A stretch of 64,000 nucleotides of DNA from positions 1 through 64,000 of the forward strand of contig JAHEFD010000005.1 in NCBI GenBank assembly GCA_024640345.1, read 5' to 3'. Source of the stretch: Woeseiaceae bacterium. GTDB taxonomy: Bacteria > Pseudomonadota > Gammaproteobacteria > Steroidobacterales > Woeseiaceae. The position numbers and the translations under genes were made by a program. The notes below the pieces were generated by a model. That model was given only the letters and a program-made list of their open reading frames with translations. It was not told where the DNA came from and did not search any database. Below, one piece after another: positions 1 to 15,742 of this stretch (positions are counted from its first letter, which is position 1; each line of letters begins with the position of its first letter).

Positions 1-2
1 CT

Positions 3-980
3 GCAGGTATTCCGCTTGTGCAGGCATTCGAAATCGTGGGCAGTGGCCACGAGAATGCCTCGATGCAAAAACTGATCATGGAGATCAAGGCGGACGTGGA
101 AGGTGGTAGCGCGCTGGCGGAAGCACTGGCCAAGCACCCTATCTACTTCGACGATTTGTTCGTGAACCTGGTAGAGGCAGGTGAACAGGCAGGCGCGCTC
201 GAGACCCTGCTGGAGAAAGTCGCAACCTACAAGGAAAAGACCGAGGCCATCAAGAAGAAGGTCAAGAAAGCGCTGACCTACCCGGCTGCCGTGTTGGTCG
301 TCGCGTTCGTTGTTACCATTATTCTCCTGGTCTTCGTAATTCCCGCCTTTGAAGATCTCTTCAAAGGCTTTGGTGCGGATCTGCCGGCCTTTACGAGGTT
401 CGTTATCGATATTTCGCTGTTCGTCCGAAGCCAGGGCTGGATCCTCGCCGGGCTGGTGGCCGGTGCTGCCTATACGTTCTTCTATTTCAAGAAACGTTCA
501 CGGCCTATGCGCCAGTTCCTCGATCGGATGACCCTGAAGACACCGATCATCGGTCCGATCATGCAGAAGGCTGCCATCGCTCGCTACGCGCGAACGCTGT
601 CTACGATGTTTTCTGCCGGCGTTCCATTGGTAGAGGCACTGGAGTCAGTTGCCGGTGCGACTGGTAATATTGTCTATGAAGTTGGCGTCCTGAAAATGCG
701 CGACGAAGTTGCCACGGGTCAGAGACTGCAGCAGGCGATGGAAAACACGGATCTCTTTCCCAACATGGTTATCCAGATGATTGCTGTCGGTGAGGAGTCT
801 GGCTCTCTCGACGAAATGTCGGCCAAGGTTGCTGACTTTTACGAAGAAGACGTCGACAACGCGGTCGACAATCTCTCCAGTCTGCTCGAGCCGATGATTA
901 TGGCAATCCTGGGTGTTCTCGTCGGTGGACTGGTCGTCGCCATGTACCTGCCTATCTTCAAGATGGGATCTGTGATCTAA
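3..980 (+). CDS. pilC: Type IV pilus inner-membrane platform protein PilC (5' truncated)
   Basis: PilC is the polytopic inner-membrane platform of the type IV pilus machine, where the assembly ATPases act on pilin. The reading frame is open from base 3, so the true start lies outside the window; about 325 residues of a protein usually near 400 are visible. Two T2SSF repeats can be seen: the first begins at the window edge (AGIPLVQAFEIV) and the second near the middle with a matching AGVPLVEALESV block. Strongly hydrophobic segments follow each repeat, and the C-terminus GLVVAMYLPIFKMG is characteristic of the family. The prepilin peptidase gene follows directly, the usual pilB-pilC-pilD order. 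Family assignment is secure. Confidence 0.95.
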   Translation, partial: AGIPLVQAFEIVGSGHENASMQKLIMEIKADVEGGSALAEALAKHPIYFDDLFVNLVEAGEQAGALETLLEKVATYKEKTEAIKKKVKKALTYPAAVLVVAFVVTIILLVFVIPAFEDLFKGFGADLPAFTRFVIDISLFVRSQGWILAGLVAGAAYTFFYFKKRSRPMRQFLDRMTLKTPIIGPIMQKAAIARYARTLSTMFSAGVPLVEALESVAGATGNIVYEVGVLKMRDEVATGQRLQQAMENTDLFPNMVIQMIAVGEESGSLDEMSAKVADFYEEDVDNAVDNLSSLLEPMIMAILGVLVGGLVVAMYLPIFKMGSVI

Positions 981-1017
981 AACGACTCTGGTCCCGAAGG
1001 GATCGAGAGCTGATAAT

Positions 1018-1043
1018 GAAACGGCGTCGCAAGACGCCGTTTC
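1018..1043 (+). terminator. Hairpin with GCAA loop between pilC and pilD
   Basis: A perfect 11-bp stem (1018-1028 with 1033-1043) closes a GCAA tetraloop. Only three T's lie at the end of the stem, so it is a weak candidate for intrinsic termination. It may instead be a processing or stabilising element that separates pilC from pilD expression. It ends about 20 bases before the pilD start codon, just upstream of the pilD ribosome binding site. Confidence 0.55.
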
Positions 1044-1064
1044 TGTATTCAGGAGCCCATTTTT

Positions 1065-1949
1065 ATGCAAGCGCTGTTCGCCCAGTCACCCCTCGTTTTT
1101 ATTGCAGTTACCTTCGTACTAGCCCTCCTGGTTGGCAGCTTCCTGAATGTCGTCATCCATCGCCTGCCCATTATGATGGAGCGCGAATGGCGGGCTCAGT
1201 GCGAAGAGATAGCGGCCCATCCGTCTCCTGAGTTACCGGAAGGTCGATTCGACCTGGTCGCTCCGCGATCACGGTGCCCGTCCTGCGGTCACCAGATTAC
1301 GGCGCTGCAGAACATACCGGTTATCAGCTACGTCCTGCTCGGGGGCAAGTGCTCCGGTTGCGGTACCAGAATTTCGCCCCGTTACCCGATCATCGAGCTG
1401 TTCACTGCGTTCCTGTCGGGCGTTGTCGCCTGGCGATTTGGCTTTGGCTGGGAGGCAGCTGTCGCCATCGCCATGACCTGGACGTTGGTCGCCATCAGCA
1501 TGATTGATATCGACCACCAGATCATCCCGGATTCAATCTCATTACCGCTCCTCTGGGCCGGCCTGACACTGAGCCTGTTTCACCCGATGCCGGGTGCAGA
1601 GTACCTGTTTGTCGAGCCGACAACGGCCATTGCAGGAGCCCTGGGCGGATACCTGAGTCTCTGGAGCATCTATCACCTGTTCCGGCTGATCACCGGTAAG
1701 GAAGGCATGGGCTATGGCGACTTCAAGCTGCTGGCGGCGCTGGGCGCTTGGCTTGGCTGGAAGATGCTGCCAATCATCATCATGATGTCGGCAGTTGTCG
1801 GTGCCACGATTGGCATATTACTGATCGTCACCAGGCGTCACGAGCGAAGCGTGCCGATCCCCTTCGGGCCCTACCTGGCCGCAGCTGGCTGGATAGCAAT
1901 GCTCTGGGGCCCCGACATCGTCAACTGGTACCTGGACTTAATGGGCTGA
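1065..1949 (+). CDS. pilD: Prepilin peptidase / N-methyltransferase PilD
   Basis: Inner-membrane aspartyl protease that cleaves the leader of type IV prepilins and type II pseudopilins and methylates the new N-terminus. The 294-residue protein has the N-terminal domain with paired CxxC motifs (C71/C74 and C96/C99, the zinc-binding form). It then has the A24 peptidase domain with catalytic aspartates in MIDIDHQIIPD (D148/D150) and in the GYGD motif (D219). Several membrane segments are obvious. The ATG is preceded by an AGGAG ribosome binding site at about 1051. It lies between pilC and coaE, the classical pilus-cluster order. Confidence 0.96.
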   Translation: MQALFAQSPLVFIAVTFVLALLVGSFLNVVIHRLPIMMEREWRAQCEEIAAHPSPELPEGRFDLVAPRSRCPSCGHQITALQNIPVISYVLLGGKCSGCGTRISPRYPIIELFTAFLSGVVAWRFGFGWEAAVAIAMTWTLVAISMIDIDHQIIPDSISLPLLWAGLTLSLFHPMPGAEYLFVEPTTAIAGALGGYLSLWSIYHLFRLITGKEGMGYGDFKLLAALGAWLGWKMLPIIIMMSAVVGATIGILLIVTRRHERSVPIPFGPYLAAAGWIAMLWGPDIVNWYLDLMG

Positions 1950-8242: not shown

Positions 8243-8539
8243 ATGCCGATAACCAAGCTCGAAAACCTGCTGAAATCCCACGAAAACAAGAGTTTGGATA
8301 AAATTATCCAACGTGCTCAACATATGGACTCATTGACGAGTGCGTTGCAGGCTGGTTTGCCCCCGGAACTCGCCGAGAACCTGATTGCCGCAAACGTTCG
8401 GGACAACGGTGACCTGGTGCTCGTTTGCAGCTCGCCCGCATGGGCCTCGCGCCTCCGATTCGAGACCGAACAGTTGATTGAAATCGCGAAGAAAACGGGC
8501 ATTGATGTCGCTGGCTGCACGGTCAGGGTAAGCCGATAA
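8243..8539 (+). CDS. dciA: DciA-like (DUF721) replication protein
   Basis: DUF721 proteins of the DciA type load or assist the replicative helicase DnaB in bacteria that lack DnaC/DnaI. The 98-residue product is short, essentially one small domain. It shows the typical central pattern LVLVCSSPAWASRLRFETEQLI, in which the W-A-x-x-L-R block is the family hallmark. The neighbours support the assignment: in Pseudomonas this gene also lies between the M23/secA pair and lpxC. Here lpxC is displaced about 6.3 kb away by the glycosylation operon. Confidence 0.85.
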   Translation: MPITKLENLLKSHENKSLDKIIQRAQHMDSLTSALQAGLPPELAENLIAANVRDNGDLVLVCSSPAWASRLRFETEQLIEIAKKTGIDVAGCTVRVSR

Positions 8540-8890
8540 GCATGGATTCCGAAGTTCTGTCTCGTGCCAGGGAGACAACGTAAAGGATCGCGCTCATTTG
8601 TGTTCCCTTGCCGTCCTGAGACGGCGTCCACATTCCAATACAGACGGGTAAAGCTGTTCTCGCACAACGTGATGTATGCCATGTTTCTTGCGTTATGTTG
8701 CGGTATCGTCGTCCTTGTTGTTTCGGGTCGTAGAGCGATCGACACCCATAAAATCGACCATCAGGACGAGACAACAAACGAATTTTGCTGATTCAGCTGA
8801 TTTGAACATCGGCAAGTGGAATACGAAATATGTGCGCCCTGTGTCGAATGACTATTCGCACTGTTTCAAGAATTTACGAGCGAACATTTG
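8540..8890. other. Non-coding stretch upstream of the glycosylation operon
   Basis: About 350 bases lie between dciA and the first glycosyltransferase. Short open frames occur on both strands (for example 8564-8791 on +), but none has a ribosome binding site, recognisable domain or plausible composition. The AT content rises towards the GT2 gene. A TTGAAC hexamer at 8802-8807 could be a -35 element, but no good -10 follows at the right distance. This stretch probably marks the left junction of the inserted operon. Confidence 0.5.
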
Positions 8891-9877
8891 ATGAGCGAAA
8901 ACACGCGTGAAAAGAATGAGTTGTCAGATACTGACATTGCCGTCCTGGTTCCCTGCTACAACGAAGAGGCAACCATAGCGAATGTTGTACGGGATTTTCA
9001 GCAGCAGCTGCCCGGAGCGACCATTTACGTCTATGACAACAATTCCAGCGATCGCACAGCTGAAGTGGCGGCACAGAGTGGTGCTATCGTTCGTAATGAG
9101 CCACAGCAAGGCAAGGGACATGTTGTTCGCAGAATGTTTTCAGACATCGAAGCATCTATCTACGTTCTTGTGGATGGCGATGATACCTACGATGCCGCCA
9201 GCGTTCGCCAGCTGTTGGACGTCTTCCTCAGCCAGCATTGTGATCTCGTCAACGCGCGACGAGTAACCGACATCGCCAAGGCGTATCGATTCGGTCACCA
9301 GTTCGGCAATCGCTTGTTAACCGGAATCGTCAACTGGATTTTCGGCAAGCGGTGCGACGACATTCTCTCCGGTTACCGTATTTTTTCACGCCGATTTGTC
9401 AAATCATTTCCCGCCCTGTCGACCGGCTTCGAGATTGAAACAGAGCTGACTGTCCACGCGCTGTCCTTAAACATGCCAATGACTGAAGCAGAAACGCCGT
9501 ATAAGGACAGGCCGGACGAAAGTGCGAGCAAGCTGAATACCTATCGTGACGGATTCAAAATTCTCTGGATGATCCTCGTGTTGACAAAAGATGAGAGACC
9601 ATTCTTTTTCTACTCAATTGCATTTTCTCTGCTGGCAATAGTCTCGCTGATCCTGGGAATTCCAGTGGCACTGGAATTCATGGATACGGGACTGGTGCCG
9701 AGGCTGCCGACAGCGATTTTGTCGGCCAGCGTCATGATCCTGGCCTTCCTCTCGCTTACAACAGGACTCGTGCTCGATTCCGTTGCGCGCGGTCGGCGAG
9801 AAGCAAAGCGCCTCCACTATCTAAGCCTGACGTGGCTTGGCCAGGATCGCCGAAAACCGTCGCCTGTACTGAAGTAA
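8891..9877 (+). CDS. GT2-family glycosyltransferase with C-terminal membrane segments (GtrB/DPM1-like)
   Basis: A GT-A fold inverting transferase that most likely places a sugar on undecaprenyl phosphate at the inner face of the membrane. The 328 residues include the nucleotide-binding start AVLVPCYNEEATI (18-29), VYDNNSSDRT, and the metal-binding DGDD (95-98). The conserved block CDDILSGYRIFSRRFV and two C-terminal hydrophobic segments (about 240-265 and 275-300) follow. A TTG at 8888 directly precedes the ATG; ATG at 8891 is preferred. The stop overlaps the next gene's start (TAATG), so translation with the GtrA gene is coupled. The nature of the sugar cannot be read from sequence. Confidence 0.9.
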   Translation: MSENTREKNELSDTDIAVLVPCYNEEATIANVVRDFQQQLPGATIYVYDNNSSDRTAEVAAQSGAIVRNEPQQGKGHVVRRMFSDIEASIYVLVDGDDTYDAASVRQLLDVFLSQHCDLVNARRVTDIAKAYRFGHQFGNRLLTGIVNWIFGKRCDDILSGYRIFSRRFVKSFPALSTGFEIETELTVHALSLNMPMTEAETPYKDRPDESASKLNTYRDGFKILWMILVLTKDERPFFFYSIAFSLLAIVSLILGIPVALEFMDTGLVPRLPTAILSASVMILAFLSLTTGLVLDSVARGRREAKRLHYLSLTWLGQDRRKPSPVLK

Positions 9878-10281
9878 TGTGGTCGACCGGACGCCAGGCT
9901 TCAAGCTTTGCCATCATTGGCGGCGTGGGATTTATTGTAGACGGTGGAATATTGACGGTCTTGAACAGCATTTATGACGTAGAACTGCTGCCTGCCCGGC
10001 TAGCCTCGTTTTCTGCCGCCGTGACAGTGACGTGGTTTCTTAATCGCCAACGAACTTTTGCAAATCACGAGAATAGGGGCATGGTTGGGGAATGGGGTCG
10101 ATACGCGGCTGTGAACAGTATTGGCTCACTTCTTAACATGGGGATATTTTTCTGGCTCGTCTCGCGCTACCAGGCACTCGCTGACTGGCCACTGATTCCG
10201 CTAGGTATGGCGGCATCAATTGCGTTGATTTTCAATTTCGTGGCATCGAAGTACCTGGTATTCGGACACACTCAATCATGA
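9877..10281 (+). CDS. GtrA-family membrane protein (putative polyprenyl-phosphate-sugar flippase)
   Basis: GtrA proteins are small four-helix membrane proteins thought to flip undecaprenyl-phosphate-linked sugars made by a GtrB-type GT2 enzyme. The 134-residue product has four hydrophobic segments. It has the signature blocks FAIIGGVGFIVDGG near the N-terminus, VTWFLNRQRTF in the centre, and FNFVASKYLVF at the end. The ATG at 9877 overlaps the GT2 stop (TAATG); a longer frame from 9832 would overlap the GT2 gene by 46 bases and is less likely. Its 3' end overlaps the methyltransferase start by ATGA. Confidence 0.9.
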   Translation: MWSTGRQASSFAIIGGVGFIVDGGILTVLNSIYDVELLPARLASFSAAVTVTWFLNRQRTFANHENRGMVGEWGRYAAVNSIGSLLNMGIFFWLVSRYQALADWPLIPLGMAASIALIFNFVASKYLVFGHTQS

Positions 10282-11009
10282 TCGAAAATTCGAATGTAAC
10301 CGATTCGTTTCACCAACACTCTGGTGGTGAAAATCTCGAAGTGATGCGTGAAGCCCACAAGTACAATCGCTTTCTTCGGGAGTTGATTCGACGTTACGCG
10401 GGAGATGCAACGACCGCCCTGGACTTCGGTGCAGGTATCGGCACGTTTAGCAACAGCGCTCCTCTGGCGCCAGAAAAAATTTATTGCGTCGAACCTGACG
10501 AAGCCGCACAGAAACACCTGTCCAAACAGGGATACAGGTCGTTTGGAAGCCTGACGGAGATTGCCGACAACAGCATTGATTATCTTTTTACGTTAAACGT
10601 CCTCGAACACATCGAGGACGATTCAGCGGCAATGGATGAAATTTATCGTGTCGTCAAACCTGGTGGACGGTTGCTCATTTATGTACCTGCCTTTATGGCT
10701 TTATACACATCGATGGACTCACATGTCGGGCACCACCGCCGGTATCGATTATCCGGGTTGCGCAAACTGGTCGAAAACGCAGGATTCAAGGTCGAAAAAA
10801 GCGCTTATTTCGACGCCCTTGGCTTTTTCGCGACGCTGGCCTTCAAACTTTTCGACGGCCCGGAGCCCGCACCACTGAACGCGAAGATGATCGGACTCTA
10901 TGATCGATATTTATTTCCAGCGAGTCGACTCCTGTCTGTTCCGTGCGCAAAACTTCTTGGCAAGAACGTGTTTATCGTCGCACGGCGAGCAAACAGGACC
11001 GGGTCATGA
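10278..11009 (+). CDS. Class I SAM-dependent methyltransferase
   Basis: A Rossmann-fold methyltransferase of 243 residues. Motif I is LDFGAGIGTF (48-57), the acidic ribose-binding end of strand 2 is VEPD (71-74), and the post-II block NVLEHIEDD with GGRLLIYVPAF follows, as in the Methyltransf_11/UbiE-like group. The substrate is unknown. Its place inside a glycosyltransferase operon suggests methylation of a sugar or of a lipid-linked intermediate, which is inference. It begins inside the gtrA-like stop codon (ATGA) and ends inside the next start codon (ATGA). Confidence 0.85.
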   Translation: MIENSNVTDSFHQHSGGENLEVMREAHKYNRFLRELIRRYAGDATTALDFGAGIGTFSNSAPLAPEKIYCVEPDEAAQKHLSKQGYRSFGSLTEIADNSIDYLFTLNVLEHIEDDSAAMDEIYRVVKPGGRLLIYVPAFMALYTSMDSHVGHHRRYRLSGLRKLVENAGFKVEKSAYFDALGFFATLAFKLFDGPEPAPLNAKMIGLYDRYLFPASRLLSVPCAKLLGKNVFIVARRANRTGS

Positions 11010-12862
11010 CAGGCTCGCTGCAAATCGGACAGATGACTATGAGAAGTAACACATTCTATGTTGCTGCCTGGCTGCTCACCTCCGCAGTGGCCATAACACT
11101 CGCATTGCTCGTCACTTCCGCATCCTATGTCGACGGAGAGTACATTCCAGTCAGCGTTGACTCTTTTTATCACGCAAGACGCATTCTTGACGCGGCAATC
11201 GGTGAGCGGGGTTTTTACCAATTCGACACCATGATCCACGTACCTGAGGGAAGCTGGATCAACTGGCCCTGGGGCTATGACTACCTGATGGCAGCCGCAC
11301 TTTCATTTGCATTATGGCTTCGTCCATCGTTGGAGCCGATGGCATTTCTCGCCCATGTTCCGGTCGCCTGGTTATGCGTCAATATTGGCTTACTAACGTT
11401 GATTGGCCGGCGAGTTGGGCTCAGCCCGTCAATGACGGCCGTCGCCTCGTTTGGTTTTGCCATGATGCCACTGACCCAAACCATGCACGGCGTCGGAAAC
11501 ATCGACCATCACTATATCGAACTGACTTTCATCCTTGCGACGTTATGGTCCGGACTTTATTTTTTTTCGGCCAGTCAGAAACCAAAATCCGCTGTGACCT
11601 TAGGTGTCGTTCTTGGAATAGCCCCTGCATTTCACAACGGGCTTTTCATCCTGCAAATCCCTGTGCTGCTCTGTCTTCTTATCGTGTGGTTGCGAGGGAA
11701 CCTTCCTGGCGTGCGACAGCTATATTGGTTCGCTGGCGCCCTGATAAGCAGCACAGTTCTGATTCTGCTGCCGTCGGCGCCTTTCTGGGATATGCAATTC
11801 GAATTCTGGACACTGTCGTGGTTCCATCTCTATATTGCTTGCTGCAGTGCCACAGGAATCATTTTTCTTGGGCTACGCCAGTTCGACTTCAAGAATACCG
11901 GGATGTTGCTCCTGCTGGTCATCGCCCTCACCAGTCCGTTACTTGCCCGGATTTTGATAGGTGCCGCATTTCTTGGCGGAGATCTCATTTTGCTGGACCA
12001 GATCTCGGAGGTGAGAAGCCCTATCCTCCGCTTGCAGGACCCTAATGGCATTCCGTGGCTTTCTTCGTTCTATAGCTGGTTTGTTTTTCTCTCGCCAATC
12101 CTCATCGTGGTGTATGCAATACGCGGGTGGCGGGCAAAGAATCCCGCAGAAATCTTCTTTTCGATCTTTGTCGTACTTGGACTCCTGCTCCTTCTAACGC
12201 AGATTCGTTTTAATCCGTTCGGCACATGGGCACTGATGATCGCGTCGGTCCTGTTGATACAGGAACAAAGCAGACGTTTCGGGGTTTCGAATTTGGCAAC
12301 AACTGCGATTTCGTTGTTGGTTGTAGCGATCGCATTCCAGCCACCCTTGAAGAACCGCCTGATCCGAAAATATCCTGCCGGAATGGATTACGAGTACGCG
12401 GCGTCACGCTATCTCTACAAGAGTCTTGCCAAGAGCTGCGCCGAAGATCCTGGCGTTGCTTTGTCCTATAGCGATGACGGTCACTATATTCGATATCACA
12501 CCGACTGCAGCGTTATCGCGAACAATTTCATTATGACGCCGCAACACGAGGAAAAGATCCGGGAAGTTGACACAATGCTGCAACTTGATCCAGTGCAATT
12601 CCTGGAACAAGTGCCAAATGTCGATTACATCTTTGTTCGAATGTACGGCGCTTTCGAGGAAAACCTGCAAGGAATCATGCAGGCCTCGCCAATTGAGAGA
12701 GTGGTCGGCCGAAATGCACCGTTGTTTATTGCGCTGACGTTTGGAGAGGATATACCGAGCGAGTATCAGTTGATCGACGAAATCCCAATTGGCGGTGGAC
12801 GTGATTTCGCATATGCGCGCGTATACAAGATTGTCCGCAAGACTGATGCGGTTGACCCTTGA
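11006..12862 (+). CDS. STT3/AglB-like GT-C membrane protein with an altered acceptor motif
   Basis: A 618-residue polytopic protein with about 11-13 membrane segments and a soluble C-terminal part (from about residue 470). The N-terminal half resembles oligosaccharyltransferase STT3/AglB: an acidic first-loop motif VDSFYHARR (D52), WINWPWGYDYL (84-94), and a second-loop motif NIDHHYIE (D167, H168, H169, E172). In the soluble part the usual WWDYG position is taken by SYSDDGHYIRYHT (489-493 SDDGH), followed by the expected N and I positions. ATG at 11006 overlaps the methyltransferase stop (ATGA); a longer GTG frame at 10943 is less likely. It could transfer a lipid-linked sugar to a protein or another acceptor in the periplasm. 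Confidence 0.72.
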   Translation: MTGSLQIGQMTMRSNTFYVAAWLLTSAVAITLALLVTSASYVDGEYIPVSVDSFYHARRILDAAIGERGFYQFDTMIHVPEGSWINWPWGYDYLMAAALSFALWLRPSLEPMAFLAHVPVAWLCVNIGLLTLIGRRVGLSPSMTAVASFGFAMMPLTQTMHGVGNIDHHYIELTFILATLWSGLYFFSASQKPKSAVTLGVVLGIAPAFHNGLFILQIPVLLCLLIVWLRGNLPGVRQLYWFAGALISSTVLILLPSAPFWDMQFEFWTLSWFHLYIACCSATGIIFLGLRQFDFKNTGMLLLLVIALTSPLLARILIGAAFLGGDLILLDQISEVRSPILRLQDPNGIPWLSSFYSWFVFLSPILIVVYAIRGWRAKNPAEIFFSIFVVLGLLLLLTQIRFNPFGTWALMIASVLLIQEQSRRFGVSNLATTAISLLVVAIAFQPPLKNRLIRKYPAGMDYEYAASRYLYKSLAKSCAEDPGVALSYSDDGHYIRYHTDCSVIANNFIMTPQHEEKIREVDTMLQLDPVQFLEQVPNVDYIFVRMYGAFEENLQGIMQASPIERVVGRNAPLFIALTFGEDIPSEYQLIDEIPIGGGRDFAYARVYKIVRKTDAVDP

Positions 12863-12889
12863 TCGTAGTTTCCGGAGACGAATGATCAT

Positions 12890-14800
12890 ATGGCGCTGCT
12901 AGTTCTTATACCTTTGCTTGGATACATTCTTTTTTGGCGGCGCGTCACAGATTCACGCAGCTCATCAGCAGCATTGCACAGCGCATCAGCGATTTTGCTG
13001 GTACTTTATTTCGGCTCCCTGGCGGGCCTATTGCAGCCAACTACTTTGGTACTAATTATTTGCGGATCGTTTCTGGCAATCAGCGAGACCGCCCGCCTGA
13101 TTATTCAAAAGACACCGTTGCCTTTGCCACTCGGTATACTTCTGTTTCTCTGCAGCTTGTTCGCGCTTTTACATCACGATGCCACCTTTTATTTGTACGA
13201 CGAATTCTCACATTGGGGCGTCTTTCTGAAAGAACTGCTGGCAAAAGACATGCTGTGGAGCGCTGATAGCAACGCAATGGTTCTTCGCTACCCACCCGGC
13301 GCACCACTTTGGCAATACTTTTTTCTTCGTTTCTCTTTTTCATCAGAAGCAAACGCCTATCTAGCGCAATTTTGCCTGCTAATGATTCCCCTCCTTGTTT
13401 TATGGCAGAACGTAAAACTTCGACAGCTCTATTGGTTACTGGCTGTCTTTGCGCTTGTTGCGCTGGGTCTCTCCAATTTTGGTCACGGCTTCGCGAGCCT
13501 GTATGTTGATCATTTGCTAGGCGCCTGGTTTGCGGGAACACTTTTTAATTTCATGCTGGACCTGGAAGATCAGTCGGCAACCCGACTGTTATCGTATTTC
13601 CTACCAATAACAACGCTTGTACTCATCAAAGACGCAGGTCTTTATTTCGCAGTTGCGGCATCTGGTATTTTTGCACTGTTGATTTTTTGGCGGGCAGCAT
13701 TTAAGGCAGACAACAAGGAACCCCTACGCGGCGTCATTAAGGCAGGAACATTGGCTATTGTCTGCATCGCAAGTTCTGGTCTAATTGCGACAACATGGAA
13801 TGCGAATAGGAATTCCGCCGGCATCCCGCAATCAACGTATTCAACAGGCGGGATTCTTTCCGGCATTGTTAACGGTAAAAGCGAACTTAGTGACGATGAA
13901 CATGCTGAATTGACCCGCAGGTTCTGGCAGGTCATTTTTAAACAACAAATAAGCAAGGACGAGTTGTTTACCGAGTTCGCCGAATTTAACTACGAACTTA
14001 TGCCAGCTTTTACATCCAGCTTCCGGATGACCACATCATCTCTCATATTACTGTTCGTGTTCTGGCAGATAATTGTCCTGTATCGACTCGTATCTCCTCA
14101 GGATCGGTGGCGCTGGGCCATAGGGGGGACCGGTTTGGTTTTGACCACGATAGTCTACATAGCGATACTATTCCTCAGTTACCATTTCGCATTTGGCGAA
14201 AGACGCATGATATTACCGTCTTATCTTCGCTACGTTCATACCGCCTTGCTGCCAATTCTGCTTTTTGCATTCCTACCATTGCTCCCGAGCTTTTCGACTC
14301 GAGATGAAGAGGCGATTCGCCTTCCATTTGGTCGAAAAGGGAGTCGTTCGGCAACGATTTTCGCCGCGCTACTTGCAACTCTTTTTGTTGTCGAGACGCC
14401 GCATTTAGAACCGCTATATAAGCCCCACGTATCCCCAGAGATACGTCAGCAAATGAAGCCCTACATAGATAACATTCGGAACTTGGCCGGAAACCATAAT
14501 CGTGTGTGGATCTATTTGCCGGTCTTCGATTACAACGGAATACGTCGCCGAATTTTTCTCTTCGATATGTCACCGGTGCATACAGAGGTTGTGACAGACC
14601 CGGAATATCTGACCAGAGATCCTGCAAAAATTCAGGACGTCATTGCCAACTGGGATTATCTGTGGTTTCCAATAGAAAACGCTCAAACAGATATGATTTT
14701 GAAATCCTTAGCTGGCGAAGATTTGAAGGAATTCGTATTTCGAGTGGATCGAAGCGATGGTGGAACTTCTGTCGTCGCGCTCGATGGCGTCTTCGATTAA
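12890..14800 (+). CDS. Polytopic GT-C-like membrane protein, function unknown
   Basis: A 636-residue protein with many membrane segments (residues 1 to about 490) and a C-terminal soluble tail (about 500-636). The first large loop carries YDEFSHWG (103-110), followed by YPPGAPLWQYF (about 134-144). An acidic residue in the first loop and a YPPG-type turn are typical of GT-C transferases using polyprenyl-phosphate sugars. No family name can be given with certainty. It follows the STT3-like gene after 27 bases, and its base composition is the most AT-rich of the operon. It is probably the final transferase, or one of two, in this surface glycosylation system. It ends 33 bases from the convergent lpxC. 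Confidence 0.6.
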   Translation: MALLVLIPLLGYILFWRRVTDSRSSSAALHSASAILLVLYFGSLAGLLQPTTLVLIICGSFLAISETARLIIQKTPLPLPLGILLFLCSLFALLHHDATFYLYDEFSHWGVFLKELLAKDMLWSADSNAMVLRYPPGAPLWQYFFLRFSFSSEANAYLAQFCLLMIPLLVLWQNVKLRQLYWLLAVFALVALGLSNFGHGFASLYVDHLLGAWFAGTLFNFMLDLEDQSATRLLSYFLPITTLVLIKDAGLYFAVAASGIFALLIFWRAAFKADNKEPLRGVIKAGTLAIVCIASSGLIATTWNANRNSAGIPQSTYSTGGILSGIVNGKSELSDDEHAELTRRFWQVIFKQQISKDELFTEFAEFNYELMPAFTSSFRMTTSSLILLFVFWQIIVLYRLVSPQDRWRWAIGGTGLVLTTIVYIAILFLSYHFAFGERRMILPSYLRYVHTALLPILLFAFLPLLPSFSTRDEEAIRLPFGRKGSRSATIFAALLATLFVVETPHLEPLYKPHVSPEIRQQMKPYIDNIRNLAGNHNRVWIYLPVFDYNGIRRRIFLFDMSPVHTEVVTDPEYLTRDPAKIQDVIANWDYLWFPIENAQTDMILKSLAGEDLKEFVFRVDRSDGGTSVVALDGVFD

Positions 14801-14833
14801 CCGAAGTCTGGCAAAATGGCGGAAATCTGAGAC

Positions 14834-15742
14834 TCAGGCGTACGCAGGCGTCGCGTAAGAAATCGGGGCTTTCTTCGGGTCGCTGAACGTGACCTCTTCC
14901 CACGCCGATTTGTCTTTGAGTAATGCGCGCAGCAACTTGTTATTAAGGTCGTGGCCCGACTTGTGTGCCGAAAACTCGCCAATCAGGCTGTGACCAAGCA
15001 GGTAAATATCGCCTATCGCGTCAAGAATCTTGTGAATCACAAATTCGTTGGCGTACCGCAGCCCGTCCTCGTTGAGAATGCGATAGTCATCAAGGACGAT
15101 GGCGTTGTCCATGCTGCCGCCAAGTGTCAGGTTGCGTGCCCGCAATGCCTCAACGTCACGTAGAAAACAAAATGTTCTCGCGCGGCTGACTTCTTTCAGG
15201 AATGACGTAGAAGAAAAATCGATCGTGGCATCCTGGCTCAGTTTATTAAACACAGGGTGGTTGAACGCGATGCCGAAATTGACTTTGAAACCATTGAACG
15301 GAGTAAACTCGGCCCATTTATCGCCCTCTTCGACCCGAATTTTCTTTTTGATCCGAACAAACTTCTTGGCGACATTCTGTTCTTCGATGCCGGCTGATTG
15401 CAGCAGGAAAACAAACGGGCCCGCGCTGCCGTCCATGATCGGAACTTCCGGCGCCGACAGATCGACATGCATGTTATCAATGCCCAGGCCAGCAGCCGCC
15501 GACATCAGGTGCTCCACGGTAGCGATCTTCACGCCACCCTGGATCAACGTGGTGCCAAGCATCGTTTCGCCAACCAGGCGAGCGTCAGCAGGAATATCGA
15601 CAGGCTCATCGAGGTCAACACGACGAAAGATGATGCCTGCATTTTCTGCGGCCGGCCGAAGTGTCATATACACTTTTTCGCCCGTATGCAGGCCGACACC
15701 GGTTGCCCGGATGGCAGTTTTCAGCGTTCGTTGTCTGAGCAT
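14834..15742 (-). CDS. lpxC: UDP-3-O-acyl-N-acetylglucosamine deacetylase LpxC
   Basis: Zinc-dependent enzyme of the committed step of lipid A synthesis. The 302-residue protein (family about 305) has zinc ligands H78 (in VEHLMSA), H237 and D241 (HKILDAIGD). It also has the catalytic pair E77 and H264 (KSGHDLNN). The start [11 protein letters not shown] is standard. It is the last gene of the dcw direction, 216 bases after ftsZ, with a possible terminator in between, so it likely also has its own promoter. Confidence 0.98.

Follow-up and report, generated by a model that had tools for sequence, protein, structure and literature searches.

A five-gene operon lies between dciA and lpxC in the window, which is the whole stretch of DNA analyzed here (bases 1-64,000 of one contig from the 3.66 Mb draft genome of a Woeseiaceae bacterium, named G000 in the comparisons below). 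Woeseiaceae are common in marine sediments. The genes of the operon are all on the forward strand and encode an AglJ-like glycosyltransferase family 2 (GT2) polyprenyl-phosphate hexose synthase (8891-9877), a putative GtrA-family flippase for a lipid-linked sugar (9877-10281), an S-adenosylmethionine-dependent methyltransferase probably acting on the sugar (10278-11009), a predicted STT3/AglB-type GT-C transferase without the WWDYG motif (open reading frame 5, ORF5; 11006-12862) and a second protein of predicted GT-C fold (ORF6; 12890-14800). The insertion site is bounded on the left by dciA (DUF721; 8243-8539, forward strand; Pfam DciA, 1e-11) and on the right by lpxC (14834-15742, reverse strand), which is convergent with the cassette.

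The GtrA gene overlaps the GT2 gene in TAATG, ATGA junctions precede the methyltransferase gene and ORF5, and 27 bases separate ORF5 from ORF6; on re-reading, the coupled five-gene operon was exactly as the original prediction had described it, coordinates included. The open reading frame listing gives an alternative longer frame of ORF5 with a GTG start at 10943, and ORF5 residues are numbered here from the M at 11039. No gene was assigned to the leader of about 350 bases between dciA and the GT2 gene (8540-8890, forward strand). The operon promoter is presumed to lie there rather than located, since no sigma-70-like site was found in 8540-8890 and a scan for promoters and terminators gave no more than chance. 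No flanking repeats were found around the cassette.

Pfam named the DciA, GT2, GtrA and methyltransferase proteins and gave nothing for ORF5 or ORF6. The GT2 protein (PF00535, 7e-13) has a GT-A domain with C-terminal hydrophobic segments and matched NCBIfam TIGR04182 (AglJ) over positions 1-290 of 293 at 5e-60 and 203 bits, which does not reach the curated cut-off of 325; judged by sequence it is a relative of AglJ, not an equivalog. Its relatives in the PDB are DPM synthase and GpgS. The flippase matched PF04138 (1.6e-21) and the methyltransferase PF13489 (1.5e-14) and PF08241 (1.7e-13); the latter gene belongs to the cassette at about half of the homologous loci. In three-component systems, the undecaprenyl-phosphate sugar that a GT2 enzyme produces is flipped by GtrA and transferred by a GT-C enzyme (PMC11127046, PMC8035078). 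The window operon contains a GT2, a GtrA-type flippase and a GT-C transferase, and the same logic, already proposed in the original prediction, is supported by the family and fold matches, indicating that the cassette is probably a three-component transmembrane glycosylation system whose transferase is unusual. It contains nothing for the assembly of a long oligosaccharide.

The transferase encoded by ORF5 was compared in an alignment of 25 homologues. All 25 matched TIGR04154, the archaeal STT3 family (best 6e-24), ORF5 itself at 5.6e-16 and 58 bits without reaching the curated threshold of 450, and none of the 25 matched Pfam STT3 (PF02516). Neither the ORF5 nor the ORF6 profile matched any PDB chain sequence, and a fold search was therefore used. 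The AlphaFold2 model of ORF5 (predicted local distance difference test, pLDDT, 90.6; predicted template modeling score, pTM, 0.91) predicted a multi-transmembrane GT-C core with a C-terminal globular domain, as in STT3, AglB and PglB. Its best PDB match by Foldseek was archaeal AglB (7e9s; E 4.4e-16, template modeling score 0.73), followed by eukaryotic STT3 (2e-13 to 1e-11), DPY19 (1e-8) and PglB (1e-8). The suspected STT3-likeness of ORF5 was thus upheld by both the family matches and the fold matches.

The residues D41, D156-H157-H158 and E324, the last being the Glu of I-x-E, are invariant in 25/25 homologues, as R390 is among the homologues. The metal ligands of AfAglB are the Asp of GND and the Asp and His of DHH, with a Glu from TIAE, and WWDYG provides the Ser/Thr pocket for the sequon (PMC8342417). 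The first motif is G-N-D in most homologues of ORF5 and S-V-D in the window protein. At the WWDYG position, which was placed by the order of strands and helices in the ORF5 model and by the invariant G rather than by residue-level superposition, either Trp occurs in 0/25 homologues and the G is kept in 25/25. A conserved H-T-x-C-x-V-I-x-N-N follows this position, the full new family motif being G-H-x-x-R-[YF]-H-T-x-C-x-V-I-x-N-N. Characterized enzymes of the oligosaccharyltransferase (OST) type, namely STT3, AglB and PglB, use WWDYG in reading N-x-S/T. Because WWDYG forms the Ser/Thr pocket and is lost here, ordinary sequon reading is not expected of ORF5, which appears from its sequence and model to be an STT3/AglB-type enzyme that keeps the AglB catalytic motifs without the sequon-reading one.

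At the level of the order, 21 of 296 genomes had an ORF5 homologue; at that of the class, 2 of 369 did, the window genome included. Of 299 genomes of the phylum, none but the window genome had one, save for two weak partial matches. Several genomes have two STT3-like genes per cassette, side by side or divergent (L124, L125, L075, L076/L114), and this arrangement suggests two sites or two sugars.

A search of 150 genomes from another family, that of G251, gave nine with the STT3 gene, in every case located at the pilin locus with pilSR on one side and pilA-pilB-pilC(-pilD) on the other; the contig of one of them (G1007) ends before pilSR. It is mostly accompanied there by GT2, GtrA and/or the methyltransferase; both orientations occur, and the gene content differs between genomes. 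At the pilin locus of G993, about 5 kb more sequence lies between GtrA and the STT3 gene (L180:4505-9500), perhaps with more glycan genes. One genome of the window's own family, G139, has GT2-GtrA-STT3 between pilB and pilA2, which brings to 10 the number of genomes whose transferase gene is at the pilin locus. Some 15 separate insertion sites were counted, two of them at pilA, for which the probability under random insertion is about 0.0006-0.01 if the target makes up 0.25-1% of the genome; this is a rough figure, the number of sites and the target size having been estimated by hand. Because the cassette is repeatedly placed at the type IV pilin locus in relatives, pilin is the likely acceptor, which the original prediction had not proposed.

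The gene order in the window's genus is pilSR-pilA1-pilA2-pilBCD-coaE-zapD-mutT-secA-M23-dciA-[cassette]-lpxC, with the pilus block directly upstream of coaE. Within the window, the type IV pilus block consists of pilC, cut by the contig start, and pilD (18-1949, forward strand), about 7 kb upstream of the cassette; pilSR-pilA1-pilA2-pilB fall outside it, past the contig break. The contig begins inside pilC (window 1-980), and the pilins of G000 are on contig C102 (L177), which ends just after pilB; the two contigs are probably neighbors in the genome. The tandem major-pilin genes PilA1 and PilA2 (L138:13797-14951, L177:6642-7838) are kept with or without the cassette in this genus and in other relatives.

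Several observations weigh against pilin as the acceptor. The window cassette is not beside a pilin gene, pilD being about 7 kb and pilA1 about 13 kb away, and no pilus gene is near the cassette in G018, G027, G032, G184, G181, G256, G042, G064 and G081. Because these other sites show no pilus genes nearby, the pilin link of the window cassette is one of kinship and statistics, not of adjacency. Pilins were present in 30 of the 30 genomes tested, with or without the cassette, and co-occurrence therefore says nothing. The N-x-S/T sequons of the pilins showed no clear pattern with cassette presence, and the sequon count was dropped as a test of N-glycosylation. The nine genomes of the G251 family may also stem from few insertion events.

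The many cassettes unlinked to pili would also fit general protein glycosylation, whether N-glycosylation or C-mannosylation-like, of many periplasmic proteins with pilin as one of them or none. The agreement of the ORF5 catalytic motifs with AfAglB and the presence of a DPY19 C-mannosyltransferase among its fold matches (1e-8) are in its favor; the DPY19 donor is a single sugar on a lipid monophosphate. However, with WWDYG lost in 25/25 homologues the usual N-x-S/T reading is not expected, the AglB fold match is far stronger than that to DPY19, and the patchy presence in the order (21/296) with frequent loss fits an optional surface trait better. General glycosylation is accordingly considered quite improbable.

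The history of the insertion was followed through lpxC, which was searched in 60 relatives and found in 56, with the surrounding regions fetched for about half. In most fetched relatives, secA-M23-dciA|lpxC-ftsZ is uninterrupted, with a dciA-lpxC gap of mostly 13 to about 230 bases, in agreement with the proposed insertion into a conserved neighborhood. One relative, G034, has 930 bases between dciA and lpxC (L052:2660-3590) with an ORF resembling by eye the alanyl-tRNA editing protein AlaX, so the gap accepts unrelated inserts. Within the window's genus the islet is carried only by G000, G001 and G005, most close relatives being without the five genes. The G001 islet has ORF6 twice; in the larger, rearranged islet of G005, ORF6 is inverted, GtrA is missing, and a further GT2, a GT4 and an LPG_synthase_TM protein are encoded as well (L044:7686-16561). 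G010 retains a 59-residue remnant of the ORF6 C-terminus (E 4e-15), and in G011 the cassette is cleanly absent. The lpxC end of G010 has an apparent frameshift (L067:2757), probably an assembly error.

Trees were built by FastTree, the species tree from SecA, M23, LpxC, FtsZ and DciA. In the latter, one five-species clade (support 0.998) unites G000, G001, G005, G010 and G011. The simplest account is that their common ancestor had already gained the cassette, which G011 then lost cleanly and which decayed in G010. In G229, of another genus, GT2-GtrA-STT3 occupies the same dciA-lpxC gap. The four dciA-lpxC copies form one clade in the STT3 tree (0.999) and in the GT2 tree (1.0), even though the species tree sets G229 apart from the other three, reflecting either an old insertion lost many times or intergenus transfer by recombination in the flanks. 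Patchy inheritance is the best reading of these sequences.

The composition gave a divided answer to the earlier suggestion that the operon is AT-rich. The overall GC content of the cassette genes is indeed lower (47-52%, against 55.6 ± 2.5% in 44 other window ORFs), but third-position GC (GC3) is ordinary for the window (61.7 ± 4.0) in the GT2 gene (59.0) and ORF5 (58.0), and only ORF6 (48.4) lies outside the window range. In G005 and G229, most cassette genes have a composition near that of the host. The recent insertion envisaged in the original prediction did not hold, the islet being common to G000, G001 and G005 with a remnant in G010 and the composition argument being weak; a recent mobile-element insertion was ruled out by the clade distribution, the G010 remnant, the lack of flanking repeats and the near-host GC3 of most genes. 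The clean absence in G011, the G010 remnant and the off composition of ORF6 would also be expected of a decaying or selfish passenger islet without present function in this genome. That is very unlikely, as all five frames are open and translationally coupled, ORF5 proteins from different species in the genus share 55-65% identity and retain the catalytic residues, and the copies have remained whole from the common ancestor onward.

ORF6 matched no Pfam or NCBIfam family. Its AlphaFold2 model (pLDDT 80.8) matched AftA (4e-5), ArnT (3.7e-3) and STT3 (2.5e-2) by Foldseek, and its invariant acidic residues are D104 and D207-H208. The model indicates a probable GT-C-fold protein, nearest to AftA and ArnT and distinct from ORF5; the GT-C nature anticipated for this gene is borne out by the AftA and ArnT matches, and fold matches of this kind were obtained for both of the last two genes. 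Homologues of ORF6 occur in 8 of the 296 genomes of the order, often with their own GT2; a GT2b gene is close to the homologue in G032, G184, G018 and G005. In G032 and G184, the ORF6 homologue and its GT2 lie near two genes of the minor pilin cluster, pilE and pilY1.

The resemblance of ORF6 to AftA and ArnT, enzymes acting on polysaccharide and lipid A, raises the alternative that the cassette decorates a surface polysaccharide (lipopolysaccharide O-antigen or exopolysaccharide) as in Gtr seroconversion, with GT2 and GtrA providing undecaprenyl-phosphate-hexose and ORF5 and ORF6 adding the hexose to the polymer in the periplasm. GT2, GtrA and GT-C are the textbook layout of such systems (PMC11127046, PMC8035078), and lpxC is the neighboring gene. 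However, lpxC adjoins dciA in cassette-free relatives too and is thus housekeeping context, and the repeated placement was at pilA, with none seen in an O-antigen cluster. ORF5 also has an STT3/AglB-type fold, and the characterized STT3-fold members, OST and DPY19, have protein acceptors. We consider decoration of a polysaccharide unlikely.

With moderate confidence, we therefore favor an AglB-like transmembrane glycosylation cassette, with the type IV pilin as the most likely acceptor. We infer the sugar, the order of steps, the acceptor and the linkage as follows. The GT2 enzyme would load a hexose onto undecaprenyl phosphate, the methyltransferase possibly methylates the hexose, and GtrA would turn the lipid-linked sugar toward the periplasm. 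ORF5 would then transfer the sugar onto an exposed major-pilin residue through its AglB-type metal site (Asp, Asp-His-His, Glu), reading the acceptor without the WWDYG Ser/Thr pocket, and ORF6 would probably extend the glycan or modify another site or another pilin. A more specific proposal, which we hold only tentatively, is that this bacterial STT3/AglB branch, nearly confined to one gammaproteobacterial order among the genomes searched, without WWDYG and with a new motif, may be a dedicated pilin glycosyltransferase using a single sugar on a lipid monophosphate. If so, the OST fold would have given rise to a protein glycosylation of new specificity or chemistry whose genes come and go at the pilus locus. 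A family with the metal site kept and the pocket lost makes acceptor choice and other linkages on the OST fold directly testable.

In the literature searched, which included few subscription papers, we found no description of a GT2-GtrA cassette at a bacterial pilin locus whose transferase is an STT3/AglB-type enzyme lacking WWDYG, and no relevant paper combined Woeseia or Steroidobacter with glycosylation. The novelty of such a cassette is provisional, and the "undescribed system" of the original prediction stands only as a variant with an AglB-like transferase, three-component systems and pilin glycosyltransferases being known (PMC11127046, PMC8035078, PMC11841053). The GtrA-GtrB-Gtr(type) and CsbB-GtcA-YfhO systems likewise combine a GT2, a GtrA flippase and a GT-C enzyme in one operon (PMC11127046, PMC8035078), whereas the cassette has an STT3/AglB-type transferase, an extra methyltransferase, a second GT-C protein and a likely protein acceptor. 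With archaeal AglJ-AglB N-glycosylation it shares an AglJ-like hexose-phospholipid synthase, the AglB fold and the Asp/Asp-His-His/I-x-E metal site (AfAglB, PMC8342417). It differs in that no family member has WWDYG, both proteins fall below the curated cut-offs, the host is a gammaproteobacterium, GtrA is present and the window cassette has no oligosaccharide assembly genes. The DPY19 C-mannosyltransferases share the STT3 superfamily fold and use a donor of the kind proposed for ORF5, but the ORF5 structural match to them is weaker (E 1e-8 against 4.4e-16) and no Pfam DPY19 match was found.

Pilins are modified by AglB in archaea (PMC5131992) and by TfpO and TfpW in Pseudomonas (PMC11841053). 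If pilin is the acceptor, the cassette would be a further, separate invention among optional pilin glycosylation systems, and the patchy gain and loss seen here would be explained. In Pseudomonas such optional glycosylation protects from pilus-specific phages (PMC11841053). The Pseudomonas systems resemble the cassette in having an optional transferase gene at the pilA locus, and TfpW is also a GT-C enzyme (PMC11841053). By its description TfpW is an arabinosyltransferase with a D-arabinofuranose (D-Araf) donor, whereas the donor here would come from the AglJ-like GT2 of the cassette, and in the window's genus the cassette lies on the far side of pilBCD-secA.

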